Shown here in pieces: positions 8,098-59,414 of a stretch of DNA of 62,379 bases. The DNA lies in the IMG/VR virus record IMGVR_UViG_3300047444_000176, positions 1 through 62,379 of that record. The stretch is one strand, 5' to 3'. The position numbers were made by a program, and so were the translations under genes. This DNA comes from a virus. Below the pieces are notes generated by a model, which was not told the DNA's origin, made no database searches, and was given only the letters and a program-made list of their open reading frames with translations. Position 1 is the stretch's first letter, and every line of letters starts with the position of its first letter.

Positions 8098-8297
8098 AGA
8101 GTCCAGCACTGCGCCAGATACTTCGTGATGCACTCGCCTCGTTCGAGGCCGACTTGGAGGAGGCGCTCGACAATGCCTACAACGAGGGCTACGACGTAGG
8201 CCACGAGGAAGGCGTCGACGAGACCGAGGACACGGTCTACGACCGTGGTTACGAGGACGGCGTCGAGGCCGGCCGCAACGAGAAGCCTGAAGACTGA
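8094..8297 (+). CDS. Acidic helical protein with GYxxGxxxG repeats (67 aa)
   Basis: GTG start coupled to the upstream stop. The second half repeats the pattern YNEGYDVGHEEGV ... YDRGYEDGVEAG, a periodic Gly/Tyr/acid motif. The product of 8377-8598 carries one similar unit (YETGFDEGV) and a long acidic tail, so the two may share origin. Function unknown. Confidence 0.6.
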   Translation: MKSPALRQILRDALASFEADLEEALDNAYNEGYDVGHEEGVDETEDTVYDRGYEDGVEAGRNEKPED

Positions 8298-9777: not shown

Positions 9778-10134
9778 ATGAACCATCCCGGCGATGACGC
9801 CCGTAGCGCGTGGAACCGTGGCCCTGAGATCATCGCAGCCGAGGAGCGCATCCTGCTGTACGCCGACGGGCTCCTCTCGTTCATGCGCTCGGAGAAGACA
9901 GACATCCTCAGCGAGTCGGCCGGGGCGATCGCCTTCTTCACGCACCGCAACGGGCAAGGCTTCGCGCCCAACCCGTTCGACAAGCCGATCGGCACCACGC
10001 AGAAGTACCTGCTGGAACGGATGGACCCAGACAACAACCGCCTGCTGGCGGAACTCCTGCGCGCAGCATGGGACCTCCGCTGCTGGCGCGAGCACTATCA
10101 CGAGATCACACCAGAGGAGAGAGACCGCCTATGA
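9778..10134 (+). CDS. Hypothetical protein (118 aa)
   Basis: First gene after the 9.74-kb promoter, with a strong AAGGAGG site seven bases before the ATG. Helical, soluble protein (MNHPGDDARSAWNRGPEIIA). Its stop overlaps the rtcB start, so it is co-translated with the RNA ligase. No family recognised. Confidence 0.65.
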   Translation: MNHPGDDARSAWNRGPEIIAAEERILLYADGLLSFMRSEKTDILSESAGAIAFFTHRNGQGFAPNPFDKPIGTTQKYLLERMDPDNNRLLAELLRAAWDLRCWREHYHEITPEERDRL

Positions 10135-11333
10135 AGTTCTACGGTGACATCCCAGTCTGGGGCGACCCGGTCGACGAGGGCGCTCTCGCGCAGGCTCAGG
10201 TCTGCCTCCGCACCGCCAAGCACGTCGCGATGATGGCCGACCACCATCTCGGCTACGCCGTTCCGATCGGTGGCGTCGTCTCCTACGAGGGAGCCATCTC
10301 GCCCTCGGGCGTCGGCTACGACATCGGCTGTGGCAACAAGGCCGTTCGGCTCGACATCCCGGCGCACTACGTGACCGAGAACCTGCCGGCCATCATGGAC
10401 GCCATCGTGTCGCAGATCAGCTTCGGCATGGGCCGCACGAACGACACGCCTGTCGACCATCCCATCCTCGACCGGAGCGAGGCCCGCTGGAACCACCCGG
10501 CCGTGCTCCCGCTCAAGCGGATGGCGGCCGACCAGCTTGGCACCGTCGGCGGCGGCAACCACTACGTCGACATCTTCATGGACGAACTCCAGCGCATCTG
10601 GGTCGGCGTCCACTTCGGCTCGCGTGGCCTCGGCCACAAGACGGCCACATGGTTCCTCAAGCAGGGTGGCGCGAAGGATGCCATCAATGCCGAGCCACTC
10701 GTGCTGCCTCTCGCGAGCGCCCTCGGTGCCGAGTACCTCCAGTGCATGACGCTGGCGGGCGAGTACGCCTACGCCGGCCGCGACTGGGTCTGCGCCAAGG
10801 TGGCCGAGATCATCGGTGCCGAGATCGTCGAGGAGGTCCACAACCACCACAACTTCGCGTGGCCCGAGGAGCACTTCGGTCAGAGCCTCATCGTCGTCCG
10901 CAAGGGTGCCACCCCGATGTGGCCCGGCCAGCGAGGGTTCATCGGAGGTTCGATGGGCGACCCGGCCTTCATCGTGCGTGGCTTCGACCCGTTCACCATG
11001 GCGGCCAAGCGCGACCAGCTTCTCTCGCTGTACTCGGCTCCCCACGGGGCCGGCCGCCTGATGTCGCGCACTGCGGCCAAGGGCAAGTTCGTGAAGGATG
11101 CGAACGGCAAGAAGCAGCGCATGCCCGGCCTCGTCCGGCATGATGCGTGGGCCAAGTGGATGGAGGATGCCGGCGTGGAGCTTCGCGGTGGCGATCTCGA
11201 CGAGGCTCCGCAGGCGTACAAGCGCATCGAGGAGGTGCTCGCGCACCACACCTACATGCAGATCGACCACTCACTCCGCCCGATCGGCGTTGCAATGGCC
11301 GGCCGGGACGTCGTAGACCCCTTCAAGGACTAG
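10131..11333 (+). CDS. rtcB: RtcB-type RNA-splicing ligase
   Basis: A 400-residue RtcB family protein starting at the ATG at 10131, overlapping the previous stop. It shows the metal/GMP site signatures in order: VGYDIGCG with D64 and C67, GGGNH (N143, H144), the H-x-G region, EVHNHHN, GGSMG, and HGAGRLMSR with H305, which matches the family's guanylylated histidine region. RtcB joins RNA ends with 2',3'-cyclic phosphate or 3'-phosphate to 5'-OH using GTP and Mn(II), repairing tRNAs cut by ribotoxins. A second ligase, a CCA-type enzyme and tRNAs in the same phage support tRNA repair. Full length for bacterial RtcB. Confidence 0.93.
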   Translation: MKFYGDIPVWGDPVDEGALAQAQVCLRTAKHVAMMADHHLGYAVPIGGVVSYEGAISPSGVGYDIGCGNKAVRLDIPAHYVTENLPAIMDAIVSQISFGMGRTNDTPVDHPILDRSEARWNHPAVLPLKRMAADQLGTVGGGNHYVDIFMDELQRIWVGVHFGSRGLGHKTATWFLKQGGAKDAINAEPLVLPLASALGAEYLQCMTLAGEYAYAGRDWVCAKVAEIIGAEIVEEVHNHHNFAWPEEHFGQSLIVVRKGATPMWPGQRGFIGGSMGDPAFIVRGFDPFTMAAKRDQLLSLYSAPHGAGRLMSRTAAKGKFVKDANGKKQRMPGLVRHDAWAKWMEDAGVELRGGDLDEAPQAYKRIEEVLAHHTYMQIDHSLRPIGVAMAGRDVVDPFKD

Positions 11334-13422: not shown

Positions 13423-13661
13423 GAGTCTACAAGTACAACGACCACGAGGACACGATGGCCGACGCGATGGGCCGGCCGCCGGCACCACGCCCGTGGTACG
13501 ACGCCGAGTGGGTCTACATGATCGCCACTTTCCTCTTCGTCAACCTCTTCGTCGGGACGCAGGTCGCCCTCGTCATGAGGCACTGGAGCTACTGGTTCAC
13601 ATGGCCGTATCACGTGGTCGTCTTCATCTACCACAACGTCTTCGCGGGGATGACATGGTGA
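13419..13661 (+). CDS. Membrane protein (80 aa)
   Basis: The ATG overlaps the upstream stop. After a hydrophilic N-terminus, the segments YMIATFLFVNLFVGTQVALV and an aromatic stretch (WPYHVVVFIYHNVFA) suggest two membrane passes. It overlaps the NMN adenylyltransferase gene by seven bases. Role unknown. Confidence 0.55.
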   Translation: MRVYKYNDHEDTMADAMGRPPAPRPWYDAEWVYMIATFLFVNLFVGTQVALVMRHWSYWFTWPYHVVVFIYHNVFAGMTW

Positions 13662-14563
13662 AGTCGAAGGGTCTCGCAGTCGCCGTCGTCCGCATGCAGG
13701 TCGACGAGCTTCACGCCGGCCACAAGTTCCTCATCGAGTCGATGCGCGCCCTCCACGAGAAGGTGCTCATCGTGCTCGGCGCTTCACGCGCGCTGCTGTC
13801 GGTCACCGACCCCTTGCCGGTGGCCGCTCGGCGCGACATGATCCAGACGGCCTACCCGGACGTGACCGTGACCGCCCTCGCTGACGAGGCGTCGGATGCC
13901 GAGTGGTCGAAGAACCTCGACTGGCTCATCGGCATGTTCCGCACGGCGACAGGGACGGGCATCGAGCCGCCAACGCTTTACGGGGCCCGCGACAGCTTCC
14001 TCCCGCACTACAAGGGCATGTTCCCGACCTGTACGCTCACGTCGCCCGAGTCCGAGTCGGGCACTGACGTGCGGAACGCGATCCAGATGGAGGACGACCC
14101 GGCCTTCCGGCGAGGGATGATCTTCGCTGCGAAGTCGCTCTACCCCATCTCGTTTCAGACTGTCGACGCGGCCATCATCCAGCAGGGCAAGGTCCTGCTC
14201 GGGCGCAAGAACAAGGACGGCGGCGGTTGGCGCTTCATCGGTGGCTTCGTCGATCCGACCGACGCCTCGCTCGAAGATGCCATCCTCCGCGAGGTCCGTG
14301 AGGAGACTGGCCTCGAAGTAGCGCAGCCGACCTACATCGGCTCGTACCGCATCGACGACCCGCGCTACCCGAAGACGGGCCGCGACCGCATCCTCACGGC
14401 CTTCTTCTCGATGCCTGTCTCGTTCGGCTTCGCTCTGGCGCGCGACGACGTCGACGCGGTCGCATGGTTCGACATGCAGAAGCTGCCTCCACTGGTCGAG
14501 AGCCACTGGCCTCTCGGCCTCGCGTTCCGCACCCACTTCTTTGGAGCCCTCCGTGCTCGCTAA
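13655..14563 (+). CDS. Bifunctional NMN adenylyltransferase-Nudix protein (NadM type)
   Basis: A 302-residue two-domain enzyme. The N-terminal nucleotidyltransferase domain has the HxGH motif (HAGH, H20 and H23) used to join NMN and ATP into NAD. The C-terminal Nudix domain carries the box ending REVREETGL (R212 onward) after GGFVDP; the acidic position upstream of the core is shifted from the strict Nudix spacing. Such fusions occur in bacteria and phages; the Nudix part may hydrolyse ADP-ribose or NAD derivatives. It lies directly before a nicotinamide phosphoribosyltransferase, giving a two-step nicotinamide-to-NAD route. Start is the ATG at 13655 rather than the shadow frame from 13493. 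Confidence 0.88.
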   Translation: MVKSKGLAVAVVRMQVDELHAGHKFLIESMRALHEKVLIVLGASRALLSVTDPLPVAARRDMIQTAYPDVTVTALADEASDAEWSKNLDWLIGMFRTATGTGIEPPTLYGARDSFLPHYKGMFPTCTLTSPESESGTDVRNAIQMEDDPAFRRGMIFAAKSLYPISFQTVDAAIIQQGKVLLGRKNKDGGGWRFIGGFVDPTDASLEDAILREVREETGLEVAQPTYIGSYRIDDPRYPKTGRDRILTAFFSMPVSFGFALARDDVDAVAWFDMQKLPPLVESHWPLGLAFRTHFFGALRAR

Positions 14564-49099: not shown

Positions 49100-49534
49100 C
49101 TAGTTGAGGATGATCCGACCGCGCATGTCGCAGTCGATGCCCTGCTCGCGGAAGTAATCCACGAGGGCGTAGAAGAAGTCTTTGTTGAGTTCGACGTTCC
49201 CGCGTTCGGGGTTCGTCTTGTACAGCAGGCCGTCGTCCATCAGTTCGCCCTTCTCGTCGTAGCGGGCGAACATGTCGAGGATGAGCGTCCAGATGGCGGT
49301 GTCGAAGTTCGCGACGTGCTGAAACGTGCGCGTCGGGTCGAAGCCGCCGGTCTTCGTGTACTTCGCGAGGGTGGACAGGGCATCGGTCATGTTCTGCACC
49401 TCGCGCCGTGTCTCTGCCGTCGCCCTCAGGATCGGGACTCGCTCCTGAGCGAGCTTGGTAGCATCGCCCAGAAGTCCGAGTTCCGCCTTGTGGCGACTCT
49501 TGATGCGAGCGATCTTAAAGTCACCGCTGCTCAT
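49100..49534 (-). CDS. Hypothetical virion-associated protein (144 aa)
   Basis: Helical protein (MSSGDFKIARIKSRHKAELG) with a conserved-looking C-terminal half (FFYALVDYFREQGIDCDMRG). It lies between the micro-protein cluster and the GT4 gene. No known family. Confidence 0.6.
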   Translation of the reverse strand: MSSGDFKIARIKSRHKAELGLLGDATKLAQERVPILRATAETRREVQNMTDALSTLAKYTKTGGFDPTRTFQHVANFDTAIWTLILDMFARYDEKGELMDDGLLYKTNPERGNVELNKDFFYALVDYFREQGIDCDMRGRIILN

Positions 49535-49537
49535 GAG

Positions 49538-49720
49538 TTACGCTCCCTTCACCTTCTTGAGGTTGGGGTTGGCCTTCTTGGCCTTCGCACTGGCGTTCTG
49601 GGCGGCCGCTGCGATGATCGCCTTGCCGTGCGCGAGGGACTCGCCCTCGCCCGCAGCCGCGTTCTCCGCAGCAGCCTCGAAGCCGATGTGCTTCGTCGGA
49701 TTGCCACGCTTCCCTGCCAT
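49538..49720 (-). CDS. RNP-signature micro-protein 1 (60 aa)
   Basis: Begins MAGKRGNPTKH, a basic patch then Asn-Pro, followed by an Ala-rich helix and Lys-rich end (AKAKKANPNLKKVKGA, which repeats the NPNL-like pair). First in reading-downstream order of a run of small proteins that all carry Arg/Lys-x-Asn-Pro near the N-terminus. Function unknown. Confidence 0.65.
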   Translation of the reverse strand: MAGKRGNPTKHIGFEAAAENAAAGEGESLAHGKAIIAAAAQNASAKAKKANPNLKKVKGA

Positions 49721-49721
49721 G

Positions 49722-49850
49722 TTACTTCTTCCCCTTCTTGGCCTTCTTGTCGGCCGCGTCGGGCTTGCCCTTCTCGGCCTTCTCCATGGCTGCGCTTTCT
49801 CCCTCGGCTTTCGCTTCCTTCAGGAAGGAGAGGGGGTTCTTGCGGGCCAT
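49722..49850 (-). CDS. RNP-signature micro-protein 2 (42 aa)
   Basis: Too short for most gene finders, but its ATG (49850) overlaps the previous stop and its stop precedes the next gene by one base. Sequence MARKNPLSFLKEAKAEGESA then a Lys-rich tail ending KKAKKGKK. Shares the RKNP start. Confidence 0.6.
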   Translation of the reverse strand: MARKNPLSFLKEAKAEGESAAMEKAEKGKPDAADKKAKKGKK

Positions 49851-50038
49851 TACTTCTTGCTCGCGGAGGGGTTGCCCACCTGCTGCGAGATGACGGTCTT
49901 CTTGCCGACCGGCACGCGCATCTTGGCAGGATTCCCACCGTCCACGACCGCATCGTTCGCGATCGGGTTCACGACCTTCTGCGACAGCACCTTCGAGCGG
50001 AGTGGCTGCTCGATCGGGTTACCACGCTTGCTTCCCAT
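49850..50038 (-). CDS. RNP-signature micro-protein 3 (62 aa)
   Basis: Begins MGSKRGNPIEQ and repeats the element internally (VVNPIAND, GGNPAKM, VGNPSASKK), as if built from several Asn-Pro units. An in-frame GTG two codons upstream is possible. Coupled to its neighbour by overlapping start and stop. Confidence 0.65.
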   Translation of the reverse strand: MGSKRGNPIEQPLRSKVLSQKVVNPIANDAVVDGGNPAKMRVPVGKKTVISQQVGNPSASKK

Positions 50039-50045
50039 GTTCACC

Positions 50046-50288
50046 TCAGTCCTTGCAACCCTTCATTGCGGAGTGCAGGTTGTCGATGTGTTTCCGAGCC
50101 AACTTGGCCTCGGGCTGTTCACTGCCGAGGGCCTTCGGGAGGAGCTTCTCGCCCCCGTTCGACCACGGCTTACGGATCTTGTCGCCAAGCTGGTGCAGGG
50201 CATCGTGCATCTCCGAGAGCTTCTTCTGATGCGGATCTTGCTCGATGCTGTCCATGCTGGCGATCGGGTTCTTGCGGGACTTCGCCAT
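50046..50288 (-). CDS. RNP-signature micro-protein 4 (80 aa)
   Basis: MAKSRKNPIASMDSIEQDPH, then a helical segment and a C-terminus LARKHIDNLHSAMKGCKD. Same N-terminal RKNP signature; otherwise unlike its neighbours. Confidence 0.65.
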   Translation of the reverse strand: MAKSRKNPIASMDSIEQDPHQKKLSEMHDALHQLGDKIRKPWSNGGEKLLPKALGSEQPEAKLARKHIDNLHSAMKGCKD

Positions 50289-50512
50289 CAGTCCTCCGCG
50301 TCCGGTGCCGGCTGCTGCTTGTTGGCCTTGCGGGCCCGCTGCACAGCAACCTTCGCCGTCGTCTTGTTCTTCGCCTGAGCGACGTAGTCGCTCTCGGTCT
50401 TGTCCATCTTCGGGCCGGGCGACAGCGTCTTCTTCATGTCGTCGTCGACGCCGCCGCTGTCGTATGGAGCCGCGTAGCCGGCCGCCTTCGCGATCGGATT
50501 GCCGCGCGCCAT
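50288..50512 (-). CDS. RNP-signature micro-protein 5 (74 aa)
   Basis: MARGNPIAKAAGYAAPYDSG, followed by a charged, Ala/Gln/Lys helix ending in acidic EDAED-like residues. The RGNP motif starts at residue 3. Overlaps both neighbours by one base. Confidence 0.65.
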   Translation of the reverse strand: MARGNPIAKAAGYAAPYDSGGVDDDMKKTLSPGPKMDKTESDYVAQAKNKTTAKVAVQRARKANKQQPAPDAED

Positions 50513-50781
50513 TAGCCGGCCGCCCCCGGCATCGCAGGCGTCGGGCTCGACGTGGGCGTCGGGGCCTTGGAACGCATGTCTTTGCCGTTCGCGAACGGAG
50601 CCTGCACGGCCGACGGGTTGTCCCCATCGTTCGTCTTCATGCTCACGTCCGGCATGTCGTTGGCCTTCTCCTTCGCCGCGACATTCACGCCGCTCGGCAG
50701 GGGAAGGTTGTCCACGCCATCCACGGGAGCCGGCATGTTGACCGACGTACCGCTGATGGTGGGGTTCTTGCGCTGTGCCAT
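50512..50781 (-). CDS. RNP-signature micro-protein 6 (89 aa)
   Basis: MAQRKNPTISGTSVNMPAPV, then Pro/Ser/Thr-rich flexible sequence (SKAPTPTSSPTPAMPGAAG). First of the cluster after the capsid terminator. RKNP at residues 4-7. Confidence 0.65.
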   Translation of the reverse strand: MAQRKNPTISGTSVNMPAPVDGVDNLPLPSGVNVAAKEKANDMPDVSMKTNDGDNPSAVQAPFANGKDMRSKAPTPTSSPTPAMPGAAG

Positions 50782-50853: not shown

Positions 50854-51873
50854 TTAGCTGACCGCCGACTTGTTGTTCACCGAGATCATGCGGCCGTTGG
50901 CCTTCTCGTTCAGGACCTCCAGCGTGACCTCGCCCACGACCAGACCAGCGACGGAATCACCGCGCTTGCCCACCAACTCGTGGTGGACAGGACGCAGCCA
51001 CGCGAGCCGGTTGATCGCACGCGACAGGAAGAACATCTGCCCGCCCGTGTTGGTCGCCGACGCGGTCGCCGTGGTCGTGTTGGTGCTCTCCGGCACCCAA
51101 CGATCGAGCACGATCTGGATCAGACCGAAATCCGAATCGTAGAAGTCGATCGCGCCGACCAGCTTCTTGTCCACCGCCGCGATGTTGCGCGCGTGCGGGG
51201 TGCCAGCAGCCGCACCCGGAACCGTGAACGCACTCACCTGACGCTTGACGCGCGGGGAGACGTACACCTGCTCGGGATTGCCACCAGCCACGTAGATGCT
51301 GTTCAGCATGTCCGCGAAGTCACCGACGGCCAACTGCCCATCGTGCGTCGCGTCACCGGGAGCGGTCCCGGCGTTGCTGCCCGCGTACGCCGTGTTGGTC
51401 GCGATGAAGGCCTGAAGACCCTTCATGACACGAGCCGCAGCGGAGGTACCGGTCGCGGTGCTCAGGGCACCGAAGACGCAGGTCTCCAGCTTCACAGCGA
51501 GTTCCTTCACCGCCTTCTGCACTTCGTAGGCGTACTGATCCGCGAAGCCAGCGGTGTCGACGGCGCGCTGCGACTCCGACAGCCCGATGTCCTTACGCAG
51601 GATCATCGTGATGTTGAAGATACGGCTCGGCGCGGTCGTGGTGGACAGCGACCAGTCGGCACCTTCGACAGCACCCGTCCCGTCCTGCGCGGACAGCGTG
51701 TCGATGAGCCACTGGTGGTAGATGTGCCGGCAGGCGACCTTGGGTGCCTGCGACACGAACGGCGTGTCGTACGGGGAGATGTTGGTGATCTGCTCCAGCA
51801 AGTCCTCACGAGCGACGCCACTCTTCAGGTCCGAGCCATCGAAGGCATACGAACCGAAGTTGAACGTGGTCAT
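50854..51873 (-). CDS. Major capsid protein (SU10/DUF5309-like HK97 fold)
   Basis: 339 residues from ATG 51873. Starts MTTFNFGSYAFDGSDLKSGV, with EDLLEQITNISPYDTPFVSQ, then FNITMILRKDIGLSESQRAV, patterns of the DUF5309/SU10-type capsid family, and a C-terminal beta region (GLVVGEVTLEVLNEKANGRM). It lies directly after the scaffold gene in transcription order. Hairpin (51887-51903) upstream may affect its translation. Confidence 0.85.
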   Translation of the reverse strand: MTTFNFGSYAFDGSDLKSGVAREDLLEQITNISPYDTPFVSQAPKVACRHIYHQWLIDTLSAQDGTGAVEGADWSLSTTTAPSRIFNITMILRKDIGLSESQRAVDTAGFADQYAYEVQKAVKELAVKLETCVFGALSTATGTSAAARVMKGLQAFIATNTAYAGSNAGTAPGDATHDGQLAVGDFADMLNSIYVAGGNPEQVYVSPRVKRQVSAFTVPGAAAGTPHARNIAAVDKKLVGAIDFYDSDFGLIQIVLDRWVPESTNTTTATASATNTGGQMFFLSRAINRLAWLRPVHHELVGKRGDSVAGLVVGEVTLEVLNEKANGRMISVNNKSAVS

Positions 51874-51886
51874 GTTGTTGTTCCCT

Positions 51887-51903
51887 CGCCCCATTGGGGG
51901 GCG
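51887..51903 (-). promoter_or_regulatory. Hairpin just upstream of the capsid ribosome-binding site
   Basis: CGCCCC (51887-51892) pairs with GGGGCG (51898-51903) across a 5-base loop, ending about a dozen bases before the capsid ATG and next to its GAGGG site. A second small hairpin (51931-51935 with 51942-51946) covers the scaffold stop. They could tune translation or be a processing signal; no T-run argues for a terminator. Confidence 0.4.
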
Positions 51904-51936: not shown

Positions 51937-53136
51937 TTATTGCTGGTTGAGGAAACCAAGTGACGGGCCGATGACCATCTTGCGGAACGCCATAGCGCCC
52001 GGACTGCCGGGGGCTTCACCCTCACGGCGCATCCGTTCGCGGGCGGACTCGATCTCCTCGCGGGAGGCTCCAGTCGCACCCTTGTTCTCGTGGGCACCTG
52101 CACCGCCTGCGGAACCGCTGATGACGCCCGCATCTTTGCGTGCGATCTTCAACTGCTCCTGACGGACCTGTTCACGCGCGGCGAGATCGGCCTCCGTGGC
52201 CTCCGCCTTGGCATGATCGGATGCGGCAACCTGTGCGCCGTGGGCTCGCTCGAAGCTCACCCATGCGTGCTCGGTTGCGCCCTGCCGATCCCCCTGCGCC
52301 AGCAGTGCTTGCACTGCGCGCTTGACCAGCGGGTCGCTGTCGATGAAGACTGCGACCTCCTCGGAGAAGCGTTCGGCGTTCGGGTGTTTCTCCTTCATGT
52401 AGGAGTCCACCTGCCGCCAAGCCGCCCTGTCCGCATCACCCGCTGTGTCGCGGGCCGCGAACCTCTCCTCCACCTTCCAGTTGGCCGTCGCCTCGGCGAG
52501 TTCGCGGCTCGCCTTGCTCAACAGCTTCGAGGATTCCACGTCGAGAACGCCACCGCTCTCGCTGATGTCCGACAGCACCTTGTCGTACCGTACCTGTGCA
52601 GCATCGACGGCCGCCTGCGAAGCGAGCGTCGTCTGAACGGGCTGTGGAGCGACTGCGGCGGGGGCCGCAGCCGGGGGGTTGGCGAAGCGCGCTTCGAGGG
52701 AACGGACCTGCTCTGCGAGCCGATCACGCTCCGCGAGGGCGTCCTTCGCCATGTGTGTGAGGTGAACTCCACCCTTGATCGCTTCCTTCACGTCGACGTA
52801 CTTGCCCGCGATGAGACCCGTCTTGGGGTCCCGCAGGGCTTCGTAGCCGGCGATCAGGTCGTCGAGACTGGGGTTGTCCGCCTTGGTCCTGTCGGTCGCA
52901 GCCGCCTTAGCCGCAGCAGGCGCGGGTTGTCCGCCCTGTGCAGGAGTCGCTGGTGTTGCCGCAGTTCCGGGTGCGCCTTCGTTGCCGGGTAGTCCGTCGA
53001 CGAAAGCATTGATCTCTGCCTGTGATGCCTTCCCCTGTCGGCCGCCGTTGGCAGCGATGGGGATGATGACGTCGGGCACGACAATCGTACGCAACAGATG
53101 TTCGTGCAGTGCTGCCTCTTCTCTGGACTGTGCCAC
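51937..53136 (-). CDS. Scaffolding protein (399 aa)
   Basis: Begins MAQSREEAALHEHLLRTIVV, then Ala/Pro/Gly-rich low complexity (about residues 55-85), a long charged helical middle (AERDRLAEQVRSLEARFANP) and Glu/Arg-rich C-terminus. Helix-rich, low-complexity protein immediately before the capsid gene is typical of podovirus scaffolds. Confidence 0.75.
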   Translation of the reverse strand: MAQSREEAALHEHLLRTIVVPDVIIPIAANGGRQGKASQAEINAFVDGLPGNEGAPGTAATPATPAQGGQPAPAAAKAAATDRTKADNPSLDDLIAGYEALRDPKTGLIAGKYVDVKEAIKGGVHLTHMAKDALAERDRLAEQVRSLEARFANPPAAAPAAVAPQPVQTTLASQAAVDAAQVRYDKVLSDISESGGVLDVESSKLLSKASRELAEATANWKVEERFAARDTAGDADRAAWRQVDSYMKEKHPNAERFSEEVAVFIDSDPLVKRAVQALLAQGDRQGATEHAWVSFERAHGAQVAASDHAKAEATEADLAAREQVRQEQLKIARKDAGVISGSAGGAGAHENKGATGASREEIESARERMRREGEAPGSPGAMAFRKMVIGPSLGFLNQQ

Positions 53137-53171: not shown

Positions 53172-53378
53172 TTACTTGCCCCGCTTCCGGCGTGTGCCGG
53201 CCAGAGGGTTGCGGTCGCCGCCGGACACGTATGTCCCGCCGTGCTCCGCCTCGTTGGCCTTCTCCGAGAGGAAGATGGCCTTCTCCTGCGCGGACCCGTG
53301 CTTCACGATGGGGCCGTTCTTGCTGCCGGAGTGTAGCTCGCCGGCCTTGCCTTTCTTGAAGACTTCATTGCTTGGCAT
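53172..53378 (-). CDS. Basic micro-protein with C-terminal RNP element (68 aa)
   Basis: MPSNEVFKKGKAGELHSGSK, ending GGDRNPLAGTRRKRGK. The RNP element seen at the N-termini of the 49.5-50.8-kb cluster appears here near the C-terminus. Located between scaffold and portal-side genes. Confidence 0.6.
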   Translation of the reverse strand: MPSNEVFKKGKAGELHSGSKNGPIVKHGSAQEKAIFLSEKANEAEHGGTYVSGGDRNPLAGTRRKRGK

Positions 53379-53379
53379 G

Positions 53380-53640
53380 TTACCTGTTCTCCGAGCCGGG
53401 CTGGTCACCGGGCTTCGCCTTCTTGGTGACCGCCGACTGGCGCGTCACGAGGGGCATCGGACCGATCATCTTCGACTTCGGTGCCATGCCCGCTGACGTG
53501 CGCCGGTTCTCGGCGAGATTGGTGAGGTCGCCCGCGACCATGTTGTAGCCGGATCGCCGGGCCATCTCTGCCATGTCTTCGGTGCTCGACACCTGATGAG
53601 CAGCGAAGTTCTGGGCGGGGTTGTTGCGTGCTCGTGCCAT
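53380..53640 (-). CDS. RNP-signature micro-protein 7 (86 aa)
   Basis: MARARNNPAQNFAAHQVSST with a RNNP start, then a helical and basic region. It extends the RNP-start family to the portal side of the capsid gene. Start base is shared with the next gene's stop. Confidence 0.6.
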   Translation of the reverse strand: MARARNNPAQNFAAHQVSSTEDMAEMARRSGYNMVAGDLTNLAENRRTSAGMAPKSKMIGPMPLVTRQSAVTKKAKPGDQPGSENR

Positions 53641-54062
53641 CAGTACTCTTCGGGGTCTGCTTCGCCCTCGTTCGGTGTGGACGGCTGATTGATGCCGACC
53701 ACTGGCTTGACGCCGCCCGCGTTGCGGCGAGCGTCGTAGAGTTGATCGTTGGACATCGACTGGAGCATCGCTTCGTGGATGCGTTCCATCGACGTCTCGT
53801 GGATCAGGAGCGAGAAGAACTTCAGGAGTCCCTCGCCGAAGCAGACGCCGCCCGCGAGGAACTCATCGGGATAGCGATCCTGCCGCTCGCGCGAGCGGTC
53901 CTTCCACATCGCGTTCATGCTCGCGATGATCGAGAGCATGTAGGGCTTGAAACTGTCGTCGTACGCCGGGCTGTTGAGCACGAACTCGATCTGACCGAGT
54001 TGACGCTCATCCAGCCGGCGAAGATCGAACATCTCGCGGAAGTCACCGCGTTGTCCTGCCAT
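53640..54062 (-). CDS. Hypothetical protein (140 aa) of the head module
   Basis: Helical protein (MAGQRGDFREMFDLRRLDER) with an acidic flexible tail (PSTPNEGEADPEEY). It follows the portal gene; possibly a head-assembly factor. No known domain. Confidence 0.6.
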   Translation of the reverse strand: MAGQRGDFREMFDLRRLDERQLGQIEFVLNSPAYDDSFKPYMLSIIASMNAMWKDRSRERQDRYPDEFLAGGVCFGEGLLKFFSLLIHETSMERIHEAMLQSMSNDQLYDARRNAGGVKPVVGINQPSTPNEGEADPEEY

Positions 54063-54074
54063 GGTCTACTCCTT

Positions 54075-56045
54075 TCAGGAGTGGTTCAACGCCGTCATCA
54101 TCATCGCGTTCTTGCCGATGTCAGGCGGGTTGAGCATGGAAGCCGGTGCGCCCATGCCGGCCGGCGCGCCTGTCGGCATGCCGGGTACGGCTGAAGGACC
54201 GCCGTTGGCGATCTGGCCTGAAGTCGGGATGCCCGCGAGACCTGCCGGACCACCCGCGCTCTGTGCCAGCGCCGCAAGCTGCGGGTTCTGGGTGAAGATG
54301 TCGTTGATCGAGGGGACCTCGAACACGCGGAAGATGCCACGGAAGAAGTTCACCGCGTTGATCTGACCCATCAGCGACTGCCCTAGGGGGCTCGACAGAG
54401 CTTGCAGGAGCGACAGCAGGTTCTGCTGCTGCATCTGCTTGCTGAGGCCCATCGTCGCGCCCATCGCCCGCGCTTGGTAGCTCGGGAACAGGTCGTAGCC
54501 GCTGAGGATCTCCCTCGACGCCGGGATCGGCATGTTGGTGTCGGGGTCCAACTGCGCGCCGTCCCCGAGGATCATCACCTCGATGGGCGGCTCAAGGAAC
54601 TGCTTCGAGAGCGCGCTGAACATGTTCGCCAGTGGCTCCAACATGGTCTCTTCATAGATGCGCGACTCCAGCATCAGGCGGGTGCCAGCAGCCTCGCGCC
54701 GGCCCACGAACTCGCGGGCGGTCTGGCGGCTGTCGGAACCGAGGCCCATGACGGCGTCGTCGACGAGGCCCGTGCCCATCTGGGCGAACTCGCGGACCTG
54801 TGCGATCTTGTTGTCGGCCACGGTGAGGCCCGACATGTCGTGACCCATCGGCATGATCGCCTGCGACGGGTTGCCGTTCAGGCCGATGAAACGGCCGGGG
54901 CGGCTGTAGAGGTTGCGCGTGATGAGGCCAGCGCCACGATCGTAGAACCACATCGGGTCGATCATCAGATCGGCCGCGTCGAGGCTCTGGTTCAGGTAGC
55001 GGTTTCCGACGATCTGGAGCTTCTCGATGATCTCGGCCTTGCCCGGCGCGTAGAAGTAGTGCGGGTCAGGCGTCGGCGAGAAGGCGAGGAACGGCAGCCG
55101 CCCGTGGTTGTACGGGTTCGGCCGGTTCCGCATCACGTAGCGGCGATTGGCAACAGTGACGACGCGGTTCAGGTCGCCGTCAGGCGAAAGCTCCGAGGGC
55201 ACACGGCCCCAGAACTCAAGGATCTCGATCGGGCGGGCGTACTTGTCCATGTAGCGCGCGGTCTCGTCGTCCATGCCCGTGCGGACTTGGAAGCGACGGA
55301 TCGAGGTGACGAGTTCGGAGTTGCCGCCACCGATTGCTCCCTCGCGCTCCATACGGGCCACTTCGGACTTGTCGAACGTGCCGATCTCCGCGAGGTAGCG
55401 GATGTCGTCGAGGTCGAGGAAGTAGCGGCGGACGACCCACTTCATGTCGCGCAGACGCGAGACGGCCGGCTGCGGGAAGAAGTCGAGGAGGTCGACCATG
55501 ATGGACTCGGGGCCGTCGAACATGACGACCTTGCCCTTGCGGATGTGGCGAACGACCTTGCCCGAGAGGGGCATGCGGTCGATCTGCTCCATGATCCGGG
55601 TCTGCTCGTCGCGCTTCCAGCCCACCTGCATCACGGCCACGCCGTAGAGGCCAGAGGCCACGAGGAGATCCACCTGCTTCAGGAAGGCGCTGTCGTCCTT
55701 CATCTGCGCGGCGTTCAGGGCCTCCTGCTTCTGCGCGGTCTTCCGGTCATCCGGGCCATAGCCCATGAAGTTGACGGGAGGATACGAGGAGAGCGAGGCT
55801 GCGGCCTTGCGCGCTGCGTCGGCCCACAGGGCGCTGAAGATCAGCGGGATGTGGACGTTGTTCTTGTGTGGGTGGAAGCGGCCAGACCACGAGCCACGCC
55901 AGAGGTCGTAGAGCCGGGGCCACTTGGAGCGGATGCCGTTGAACTGCGACTCGGAGTAGCGCAGGCAGTCGATGACCATGTTCGCCATCTGCTGCTTGTA
56001 GGCGTAGTCGGACGGCTCGCGCTGAATGGCAAGAGCAGAGATCAT
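54075..56045 (-). CDS. Portal protein (656 aa)
   Basis: Begins MISALAIQREPSDYAYKQQM. Contains a core layout of podovirus portals: NNVHIPLIFSALWADAARKA near residues 60-80, GVAVMQVGWKRDEQTR, and the later MPGHDMSGLTVADNK-like region. A Gly/Pro/Ala/Met-rich C-terminus (residues about 600-656) ends TALNHS. It forms the DNA-packaging portal ring. Position next to the scaffold and terminase supports it. Confidence 0.82.
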   Translation of the reverse strand: MISALAIQREPSDYAYKQQMANMVIDCLRYSESQFNGIRSKWPRLYDLWRGSWSGRFHPHKNNVHIPLIFSALWADAARKAAASLSSYPPVNFMGYGPDDRKTAQKQEALNAAQMKDDSAFLKQVDLLVASGLYGVAVMQVGWKRDEQTRIMEQIDRMPLSGKVVRHIRKGKVVMFDGPESIMVDLLDFFPQPAVSRLRDMKWVVRRYFLDLDDIRYLAEIGTFDKSEVARMEREGAIGGGNSELVTSIRRFQVRTGMDDETARYMDKYARPIEILEFWGRVPSELSPDGDLNRVVTVANRRYVMRNRPNPYNHGRLPFLAFSPTPDPHYFYAPGKAEIIEKLQIVGNRYLNQSLDAADLMIDPMWFYDRGAGLITRNLYSRPGRFIGLNGNPSQAIMPMGHDMSGLTVADNKIAQVREFAQMGTGLVDDAVMGLGSDSRQTAREFVGRREAAGTRLMLESRIYEETMLEPLANMFSALSKQFLEPPIEVMILGDGAQLDPDTNMPIPASREILSGYDLFPSYQARAMGATMGLSKQMQQQNLLSLLQALSSPLGQSLMGQINAVNFFRGIFRVFEVPSINDIFTQNPQLAALAQSAGGPAGLAGIPTSGQIANGGPSAVPGMPTGAPAGMGAPASMLNPPDIGKNAMMMTALNHS

Positions 56046-56629
56046 GTAGCCCTCTTGAAGTCGGCCGGAAGCGGCAGACGTGTGTATCCGCCGGGTCCGA
56101 TGAGGCCGTCGGTTTCGACGATCTTCATGAACAGGTCGAAGGTCAGGTGAACGTCGTCACCGCAGTAGCGGAAGAGCTTGCCGAACCGGCCCGTGCGGGC
56201 GAGTTCCTTGGCGTTGCCGCCATGCTCGATCTTCCCTCGGCCGAGGTTGCGGCGAGAGATGCGGTCCAGCGTGAGGTCGCCCTTGCCGGTCTTGATGCCG
56301 CGCTTGGCGCAGGCACCGGAGAGGGCCTCGAAGATGTCGAAGTGCTTGCGGACGCGCAGGGCCCGACGGGCCAACCCCTCCATGACGGGCAGGTCGAAGC
56401 CCACGGAGTTGAAGCCGACGAGGAGGTCGGCCTGCTCGATGTGGCGGGCGCACGCTTCGACCTCATGGTCGTCGTATGCGTAGAGCCACTGATCGCGTGT
56501 GTCGTACAGCACGATAGCGGACGCGCCCCCCTTGCCCTGCCGGAGGAGTTCCCACCCGTGCTCCTTGTCCTTGGGGTCGAGGTCCTCAGCCCAGAGGCGG
56601 GACTCGATGTCGAACACGATGACGCGCAT
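56042..56629 (-). CDS. DnaQ-like/RNase H-fold exonuclease (195 aa)
   Basis: MRVIVFDIESRLWAEDLDPK gives the DxE motif I (D7, E9). LLVGFNSVGFDLPVMEGLAR is the N-x-x-x-F-D motif II, and FRYCGDDVHLTFDL a YxxxD-type motif III, so a DEDDy-like exonuclease. It shares bases with the portal start. It is the third exonuclease domain in the window; role in the packaging module is unknown. Confidence 0.75.
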   Translation of the reverse strand: MRVIVFDIESRLWAEDLDPKDKEHGWELLRQGKGGASAIVLYDTRDQWLYAYDDHEVEACARHIEQADLLVGFNSVGFDLPVMEGLARRALRVRKHFDIFEALSGACAKRGIKTGKGDLTLDRISRRNLGRGKIEHGGNAKELARTGRFGKLFRYCGDDVHLTFDLFMKIVETDGLIGPGGYTRLPLPADFKRAT

Positions 56630-57321: not shown

Positions 57322-57471
57322 CTAACCTCTGCGCCGGCTCTCGCGGTTCCAGAGCCACAGGCGGATGCGGGCCACGAGGCGTTCGCCCCAGTGACCACCT
57401 TTGACGACTCCGATCTTGCGGGTGATGTTCCCGCGTGTCACGGAGATGCTGATGCGTGCTCTGGTCTTCAT
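57322..57471 (-). CDS. Small basic protein (49 aa)
   Basis: The ATG at 57471 overlaps the terminase stop by four bases. Sequence MKTRARISISVTRGNITRKI, strongly Arg-rich (NRESRRRG end). Not reported by simple length filters but well coupled. Unknown role. Confidence 0.5.
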   Translation of the reverse strand: MKTRARISISVTRGNITRKIGVVKGGHWGERLVARIRLWLWNRESRRRG

Positions 57472-59414
57472 ACGGGTTCCCTCGGTGGAATCCACCCGTC
57501 CTCCTCGAAGCCACGGACGCCGTCGTCGAGGTAACCGGAAGCCCGGAGTTCATCGCGCTCGGCCATCATGGTGAGGAGTTCATCGTTCGTCATGGGCTTG
57601 CCCATGTTCTTCAGGTCGTCGTCCCACGGGCGACGGACCGTTGTTCCCTCGTCCTGCACGAGGCCGGGGTCCGTGGTAGGCGGTCGCCACAGTTTCGGGG
57701 CGAAGCCGTCAGCCGCTGCATCGGCAAGGTCGTCGTGTGAGACCGTGTCAACCTTGAGGATCTGGTTGACCATCTTCCGCACGATCGGCGTCACGATGAA
57801 GTGAGGGCACTGCACGTAGACGAGCTTGTTTGTCTTCGGGTCGAGCACGGGAGGCGGGCACTTGCACTCACCCCTGTTGAGGAGGATGCGCGCGTAGCCG
57901 CCCTGCCAGTGACCGGCCGCCGTACGGATGCGGGACTTCTTGTCCTTGGTACGGTTGAACTGCATGAACTGGTCATCGCCGAAGTTGAAGCCGGCGGTGC
58001 GAAGGAGGCCGAGGATACGGTTCTTGTAGACGCCCTCTTTGCCACCCGGCTCGGTCTCGTCCGTGATCGCGCGAATGAAGATGCCGCGACGGCGGAGGTT
58101 GACGAGGACGGCAATCAGTTCCTTGTTGAAGTCCTCTTCGCGCCACTCGTTCGAGGCGCGGAGGAGTTCGGTGTCGAGGTAGAGCACGCCGTTGTTACGG
58201 GCGTCCTTCAGCCAGACCACGATTACAGAGTCGTCACCGCGCCCGATGTTCTCCTTGTTCTTGAACGCCGTGTCGATGTGGACGGTTGCCCACTCGACCG
58301 TCACGTCCCAGATGAAGTCCGGGTAGGAGACGTAGAGCCACGGGATCTGCCCCTCGACGAGCGGAGCGTGCTCCGATGCGCCGGGGTTGTTCTGCTGCTG
58401 GCCTGCGAACTCCTCGGCGTTGATGCGCTTGCGTCGCGCGATCTCGGCCACGGTCCACATCTTCGGGTGCGTCGGCAGGCCGGTGGTCTCGTCCTCGGTC
58501 TGCCAGAAGAAGACGTGCCAGATGCCTTGGCCGAAGGGCACCTTGTCGAACATCGACATGTGCGGGCAGGGCATGCCGGTCCACGAGGCGACGCCGTCCT
58601 CGTGCATGTGGTAGCCCGCGACGTCGTCGTCGAGGTACCGGGTGCATGTGAGGACACGGAGTCCGTTACGGTGGAGCGCGTTGGCCGACGACATGAAGGC
58701 TGACTTCTGCCCTCGCAGGTAGGCCGAGCGGTCCTTCTTCAGCTTCTCCTGTTCGAGCGGGTCATCCCAGAAGGACTGGCGCGGGTGGTAGCCCGTCGCG
58801 CCGATGCCGGCGGATGAGGCGTCGAACGAGGGCTCGCCGATGTTGCGCGCGCGCCGGTAGGAGTGCTTGATGAATGACTTGGTGCGCTCCTGCGCGCCAG
58901 TCACCCAGTCGCCGTAGAGCCATACGAACCACGAATCCGGGTCGTGGTTCTTCCCCCCACCGCAGACTGCAAGGATGGAACCGAGAATGTCACCGGACAG
59001 TTCGTCGGTCGCAGACTGGATGAGGGTCGTCATGTCGGGGTCGTTCAGGTGCGACCACAACGACCCGGCTTTGGTCGATGAGACCGTCTTCCCGAAGCCA
59101 CGCGGCAGGAGGGAGATCAGGTTGTACTGCTCGGGGATGCCAGCGAGGGCATGAGCCTTCCACTGGAGCAGGTGAGTCTGGAGCCATGTGGTGTACGGGA
59201 TGTGGAGCGGCTCGTACAGCCACTGGGGCTCTGCGGGATGCGACGCGAGGTAGTGCTCCGCGCCCCATGCGTGGCGGAGGAAGTGCCACAGGGAGTGCGG
59301 GTGCGTCGACCGCATGGGGTTTACATGCCACGCTTCCGGCGCGCAGATTGCCCGCCAGAGGACCCTCTCGGCTTCCATGTCCCAGTCTTGACGAAGCGCA
59401 GAAACTTGAGCCAC
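57468..59414 (-). CDS. terL: Terminase large subunit
   Basis: 648 residues from the GTG at 59414, which follows GGGAGG at good spacing; an internal ATG at 59315 lacks a site. Walker A SLLPRGFGKT lies near residues 101-110. The RNase H-like nuclease part shows HIDTAFKNKENIGRGDDSVI, AITDETEPGGKEGVY and VDTVSHDDLADAAADGF, the usual D-rich terminase motifs. It packages DNA into the prohead through the portal. The start overlaps the upstream gene by 94 bases. Confidence 0.9.
   Translation of the reverse strand: MAQVSALRQDWDMEAERVLWRAICAPEAWHVNPMRSTHPHSLWHFLRHAWGAEHYLASHPAEPQWLYEPLHIPYTTWLQTHLLQWKAHALAGIPEQYNLISLLPRGFGKTVSSTKAGSLWSHLNDPDMTTLIQSATDELSGDILGSILAVCGGGKNHDPDSWFVWLYGDWVTGAQERTKSFIKHSYRRARNIGEPSFDASSAGIGATGYHPRQSFWDDPLEQEKLKKDRSAYLRGQKSAFMSSANALHRNGLRVLTCTRYLDDDVAGYHMHEDGVASWTGMPCPHMSMFDKVPFGQGIWHVFFWQTEDETTGLPTHPKMWTVAEIARRKRINAEEFAGQQQNNPGASEHAPLVEGQIPWLYVSYPDFIWDVTVEWATVHIDTAFKNKENIGRGDDSVIVVWLKDARNNGVLYLDTELLRASNEWREEDFNKELIAVLVNLRRRGIFIRAITDETEPGGKEGVYKNRILGLLRTAGFNFGDDQFMQFNRTKDKKSRIRTAAGHWQGGYARILLNRGECKCPPPVLDPKTNKLVYVQCPHFIVTPIVRKMVNQILKVDTVSHDDLADAAADGFAPKLWRPPTTDPGLVQDEGTTVRRPWDDDLKNMGKPMTNDELLTMMAERDELRASGYLDDGVRGFEEDGWIPPREPV

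Follow-up and report, generated by a model that had tools for sequence, protein, structure and literature searches.

A basic-Asn-Pro tag on unrelated small proteins around the scaffold and capsid genes of a soil phage lineage: a candidate docking motif for head assembly

Encapsulin cargo consists of unrelated proteins that carry a common short terminal peptide, which binds the inside of an HK97-fold shell. In phage P22, basic residues at the end of the scaffold protein bind the coat interior by means of a folded helix-turn-helix. In phage T4, the internal proteins and Alt are small, diverse head proteins that are loaded into the prohead by a common short N-terminal capsid targeting sequence (CTS) (PMC3012670, PMC7411985). 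Propeptides of the giant phage SPN3US, among them a C-terminal propeptide of the protease, are proposed prohead-targeting signals (PMC7411985).

Here, we describe a comparable arrangement in a soil phage, on a 62.4-kb window (the whole stretch of DNA analysed, 62,379 nucleotides, from an IMG/VR virus record). Unrelated small proteins encoded in its head region share a short terminal segment in which one or two basic residues are followed by Asn-Pro, hereafter the tag. A first-pass annotation of this DNA had stated that no family with this arrangement is described, thereby overlooking the T4 internal proteins with their diverse bodies and common CTS (PMC3012670, PMC7411985). The likeness lies in a short common N-terminal segment on unrelated head-region proteins, with one exception (F8, C-terminal). 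However, the T4 CTS, a propeptide, measures about 10-20 residues and is cut off by the gp21 prohead protease, whereas the tag described here spans 5-8 residues and can be C-terminal. Moreover, the coat is P22/LUZ24-like rather than T4-like, and no protease was found among the head-module genes searched against PHROGs (part of the genome). We regard the T4 CTS as a precedent for the logic of the tag, that is, as a functional analogy rather than as membership in the T4 system. The SPN3US propeptides differ in being long (64-130 residues), cleaved and not a common short tag, and the P22 coat-binding segment is a folded helix-turn-helix as opposed to an Asn-Pro motif. Compared with encapsulin cargo, the candidate cargo here would be tiny phage-head proteins.

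The head module of the window is podovirus-like and lies on the minus strand, with the following features:

Large terminase, 57468-59414, minus strand
Portal protein, 54075..56045, minus strand: phrog_1216 / phrog_332
G140, 53640..54062, minus strand: conserved 140-aa protein between portal and cassette, orthologs in 81 loci
F7, 53380..53640, minus strand: 86 aa, MARARNNP, upstream of the scaffold gene
F8, 53172..53378, minus strand: 68 aa, DUF6496 (PF20106) ortholog, C-terminal RNPLAGTRRKRGK, motif in the C-terminal tail GGDRNPLAGTRRKRGK
Putative scaffold protein, 51937..53136, minus strand: between F8 and the capsid gene, named from position only
Major capsid protein, 50854..51873, minus strand: P22/LUZ24 type, phrog_1328, E 2.5e-57 (profile match)
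F1, 50512..50781, minus strand: 89 aa, MAQRKNP...NDGDNPS...PAMPGA, first gene past the capsid gene, at the same site in most near relatives
F2, 50288..50512, minus strand: 74 aa, MARGNP then (R)VGNYxAPVDxxGMD...AVxRARKANK, lineage-specific
F3, 50046..50288, minus strand: 80 aa, MAKSRKNP then SEMHDALxxLGDKIRKP...LLP...ARKHIxxLHxAMK, lineage-specific
F4, 49850..50038, minus strand: 62 aa, MGSKRGNP then repeated VLSQxVVNP / ISQQVGNP units
F5, 49722..49850, minus strand: 42 aa, MARKNP then a Lys-rich body, closest relatives only
F6, 49538..49720, minus strand: 60 aa, start MAGKRGNP, followed by a body that belongs to a widespread phage family (HxGFxAAxxxxA...NPxLxKVxG)
G144, 49100..49534, minus strand: conserved 144-aa protein bounding the cassette on its downstream side, orthologs in 53 loci

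The order portal-G140-F7/F8-scaffold-capsid-F1..F6-G144 is shared by the window and its relatives, and a glycosyltransferase gene follows G144 in the window. Between terminase and portal, an ORF resembles a DNA polymerase exonuclease subunit (56042-56629, minus strand; phrog_403, E 1.7e-9). The putative scaffold (51937..53136) gave no profile match in PHROGs. The capsid gene likely starts at the Met at 51873 (MTTFN...) and not at 51894, with GGGCGAGG just upstream of 51873; the MGRGNNN stretch ahead of this Met was set aside as a tag, as the ribosome-binding-like GGGCGAGG falls inside it. Judging by gene overlaps and gaps, F1 to F6 look like one translationally coupled unit: F1-F2, F2-F3 and F4-F5 overlap by 1 base, and the remaining gaps measure 1 and 7 bases.

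All eight tagged ORFs (8/8) that the first-pass annotation had listed were recovered in place on the minus strand (49538-50781, 53172-53378, 53380-53640). Seven of these small genes start with a basic residue and Asn-Pro, the eighth (53172-53378) has R-N-P-L near its C-terminus, and F4 is indeed the member that repeats the Asn-Pro unit, with four copies overall. When residues were shuffled within each protein, a tag arose in the first nine residues in 0.4-1.9% of cases per gene; finding it in 7/8 proteins has P = 3e-14, which rules out a chance origin. The eight proteins hold 13 Asn-Pro pairs, compared with 2.8 expected from composition, while other late genes hold 20 vs 16 expected. In relatives, 456 tag-bearing ORFs lie on the coding strand vs 66 on the opposite strand over 1.35 Mb, raw totals that take in overlapping loci of one contig and thus overstate the number of independent genomes. 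With a stricter pattern, the coding-to-opposite ratio is 68 to 2 in the near clade and 22 to 3 in a middle group. In seven near-complete genomes (~60 kb each), 39/58 strict matches fall in the head cassette and on its strand; six of these 39 stem from a Met inside the portal gene (the 'MRNRPNP' start, discarded as a tag for this reason), leaving about 33 real cassette tags, compared with 19 matches outside the cassette over both strands. One gene far from the cassette carries a clear tag: in L194, a 54-aa gene at about position 8250 (MAKRSNPVMNLVDRVKKGMAAV, starting MAKRSNP) lies on the minus strand, the same strand as the head cassette, about 19 kb from the capsid gene. In 80 loci chosen solely for DUF6496, 2 strict and 11 relaxed matches were found on the coding strand vs 4 and 29 on the other; given this lack of a coding-strand excess, tag arrays are not a general phage feature.

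The DNA behind the tag is variable. A set of 50 distinct tag DNAs uses 7/8 possible Asn-Pro codon pairs, and synonymous identity of tags is 0.47 within a genome vs 0.41 between genomes, so neither a DNA repeat nor recent gene conversion accounts for them: the shared element is a peptide, not a DNA repeat. This result bears on the reading that the tag merely reflects favoured early codons, an RNA-level effect on translation start with no peptide function. After ATG, codons for Ala and Lys/Arg are frequent in many genes, which would fit such an effect. However, the freely varying synonymous codons led us to reject it, and it also leaves the C-terminal motif of F8, the second conserved Asn-Pro near the C-terminus of F6 and the rarity of the tag in other genes of the same genomes unaccounted for; we give it hardly any credence.

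The bodies behind the tags diverge, as had been claimed: profile-profile comparison gives probabilities below 1% throughout, and the families have no ORF in common. The tag is thus a genuine motif at the peptide level, borne by six or more unrelated families. The tandem layout, with stop and start codons that abut or overlap, might be expected from a relic of gene duplication, in which paralogs diverged except for their first residues. However, no relation between the bodies was detected, F6 and F8 are each part of a different, wider family, and the motif of F8 is C-terminal, so that a duplication origin is rejected as very improbable. For the same reason, the proposal of a 'modular family of head-interior proteins' fails as worded, since the bodies are unrelated and two of them belong to families that are widespread in other phages.

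The first of these two families is DUF6496. The window copy of F8 alone gave no PF20106 match at E 0.1; it can be aligned along its length to near-lineage orthologs (55-82% identity), and orthologs match PF20106 at E of about 1e-12 (48.6 and 48.2 bits, above the curated cut-off of 24 bits). By its orthologs, F8 is a DUF6496 member. In other phages and in most of the distant lineage members, DUF6496 proteins have a basic N-terminus and lack such a C-terminal tail. In contrast, near-lineage F8 starts MPSSEV, misses the basic N-terminal segment and has a C-terminal tail such as ERKNPLAGTRRKRK in every aligned row. Among the aligned rows, 13 (12 near-lineage and the distant L045) carry C-terminal Asn-Pro tails followed by Arg/Lys, and the rows from other phages do not. 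Neither a curated function nor a paper was found for DUF6496.

The second is an unnamed phage family of the form 'HPGFKAVQ...NPRLKRVKG', whose core, with its G-F start and invariant C-terminal NPxL..V.G, is conserved in F6, including a second Asn-Pro near the C-terminus. It comprises at least 460 relatives among at least 599 matching stretches, on hundreds of virus contigs, and no curated function was found for it. An F6-like domain is also present in Atu_ph07. Outside the lineage, most relatives lack an Asn-Pro tag and have starts such as MKKHPGFKAV, whereas this lineage sets RGNPT or similar ahead of the core. Both bodies are thus widespread in phages, generally without the tag, which here sits at opposite ends of the two proteins; of all arguments for a portable module, its gain at different ends of unrelated proteins weighs most.

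AlphaFold2 models of F6 (model m54e223b2506a, mean pLDDT 73) and F8 (model m402f959df615, mean pLDDT 71) show, at moderate confidence, a mostly helical core; no solved structure matched either model in a structure search. Residues 1-10 of F6 (pLDDT 51) and 51-68 of F8 (about 53) fall outside the better-predicted core. The tags of both proteins likely lie in disordered tails, with the caveat that low pLDDT fits disorder and is no proof of it.

The comparison with related phages that the first-pass annotation had suggested was run on relatives gathered by capsid and portal searches (62 and 44 loci). Families were gathered with profiles stripped of the N-terminal tag, so that the search itself did not select for tagged orthologs. 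A tagged cassette around scaffold and capsid was found in a clade of IMG/VR soil phages: with tag states compiled by hand, genomes with at least half of their genes tagged make up 13/15 rows of one capsid-tree clade (support 100/99), and one further such genome belongs to its sister group. Asn-Pro presence, likewise compiled by hand, agrees between genes of one genome in 169/213 pairs (permutation mean 105, maximum 137). Such agreement is what a shared partner predicts, and it is suggestive only, as shared descent inflates it and independent changes are few.

Farther out, the tag fades. F1, F2, F3 and F8 are present in distant relatives without Asn-Pro, usually with a looser basic-x-Pro start (F2, F3 and F8 N-termini read MARKMP, MARKSP, MAKRKSP and similar). 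F6 may retain MARHNP where F2 and F3 of the same distant genome have lost Asn-Pro, and in L210 it is present as MARKHIGFE. The motif is therefore dispensable, and the loss that the first-pass annotation had held against a tag function does occur in part: several genes are kept without Asn-Pro in distant relatives, usually with the looser start. Tag position and spacing also vary among members. In a collection scan, F2 was confined to this lineage and a single distant member, and F3 to this lineage and its distant members.

This pattern would fit a rival reading, in which the tags are nonspecific basic tails that bind nucleic acids. The small proteins would then be DNA-binding, packaged with the genome or acting on cell DNA, with Asn-Pro as no more than a cap where the tail meets the body. 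Lys and Arg abound in the tags and in most bodies, distant relatives swap Asn for Ala, Ser, Met or Asp while the basic residues and often Pro stay, and the ends of F8 and F6 are Lys-rich elsewhere too. However, pure electrostatics does not explain why Asn-Pro is kept in at least six families of one clade, nor the Asp variants, and F1 is not net basic (8 basic and 8 acidic residues). This is the main rival of a docking function, and one we consider possible though rather improbable.

In the lineage, nearly all tagged copies lie on either side of scaffold and capsid, in the stretch from portal to tail genes. Such a location argues against non-structural late products, for instance host take-over factors or inhibitors, whose tag would target a host factor or affect stability. 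DUF6496 and the F6 family do occur in many phages at varied positions, some outside the head genes, as this reading would have it, although some F6 or DUF6496 genes outside the lineage are also near terminase or portal. We consider a non-structural role unlikely.

Our preferred reading, held tentatively and at a little under an even chance, is that the tag acts as a short linear docking motif for head assembly. In this model, basic residues and Asn-Pro at the outer end of unrelated small proteins would bind one common partner, most likely the inward-facing surface of the coat or scaffold lattice, and the docked proteins would be taken into the head and be present in the virion. There, they might compact DNA or act in the newly infected cell, candidate roles suggested by the many Lys/Arg-rich proteins among them. 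The common docking signal for head proteins proposed in the first-pass annotation is thus plausible and partly supported, with the additions that it is a protein-level and portable element, largely restricted to one clade, placed at either terminus and outside the core in two models, all of them features to be expected of such a signal. No partner site for the tag was seen in the coat alignment. Scaffold C-termini of the lineage have a PG[S/N]P stretch, whose link with the tag is confounded by descent and at most a weak lead. A bolder version, which we find doubtful, has the tag work without a protease, as an 'address label' for P22/LUZ24-type capsids: appended to existing small proteins and active from either end, the basic residues and Asn-Pro would recruit a changeable head cargo. 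If true, tagged proteins would enter the head by a very short loading signal, and we know of none described for this capsid class. Should the tag direct head entry, it could be used for loading foreign cargo, head proteins could be predicted from the small unnamed proteins that soil phages encode, and DUF6496 and the F6 family would receive a hint of their function.

A few observations concern single genes or other phage groups. In a phage collection searched for cultured relatives, tblastn of F1, F3 and F6 gave nothing significant, and no capsid relative that would point to the host was found in genome contigs. The phiM5 protein gp13, a virion protein encoded right after the capsid gene, was considered as a cultured counterpart and dropped: its PRNPSRR is internal, and it has no terminal tag. 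In L029, L030 and L032-L037, F1 corresponds to two adjacent genes, ending PPFADGKDxRNRG and PAKPGA/PAMPGA; the two seem to be fused in the window F1 (50512-50781), or else a single gene seems to have been split in the others. In the distant L052, a MARKNPLTRAAV gene (7272) directly follows DUF6496, in a genome whose other cassette genes have no Asn-Pro. Among distant capsid relatives, a small gene with a start like M(S/A)GIRG(K/I)(R/K)NPMP is present in L058 (466), L061 (6150), L063 (3443), L057 (2002) and L060 (799), 3.7-7 kb upstream of the capsid gene, giving another phage group a similar basic-Asn-Pro start. Elsewhere in the window, the plus strand encodes an RtcB-type tRNA splicing ligase (10068-11333; phrog_1075, E 2.6e-74) and an ORF (13493-14563) that is cytidyltransferase-like in its N-terminal part and NUDIX-like in its C-terminal part, whose product is possibly an NAD-related bifunctional enzyme.
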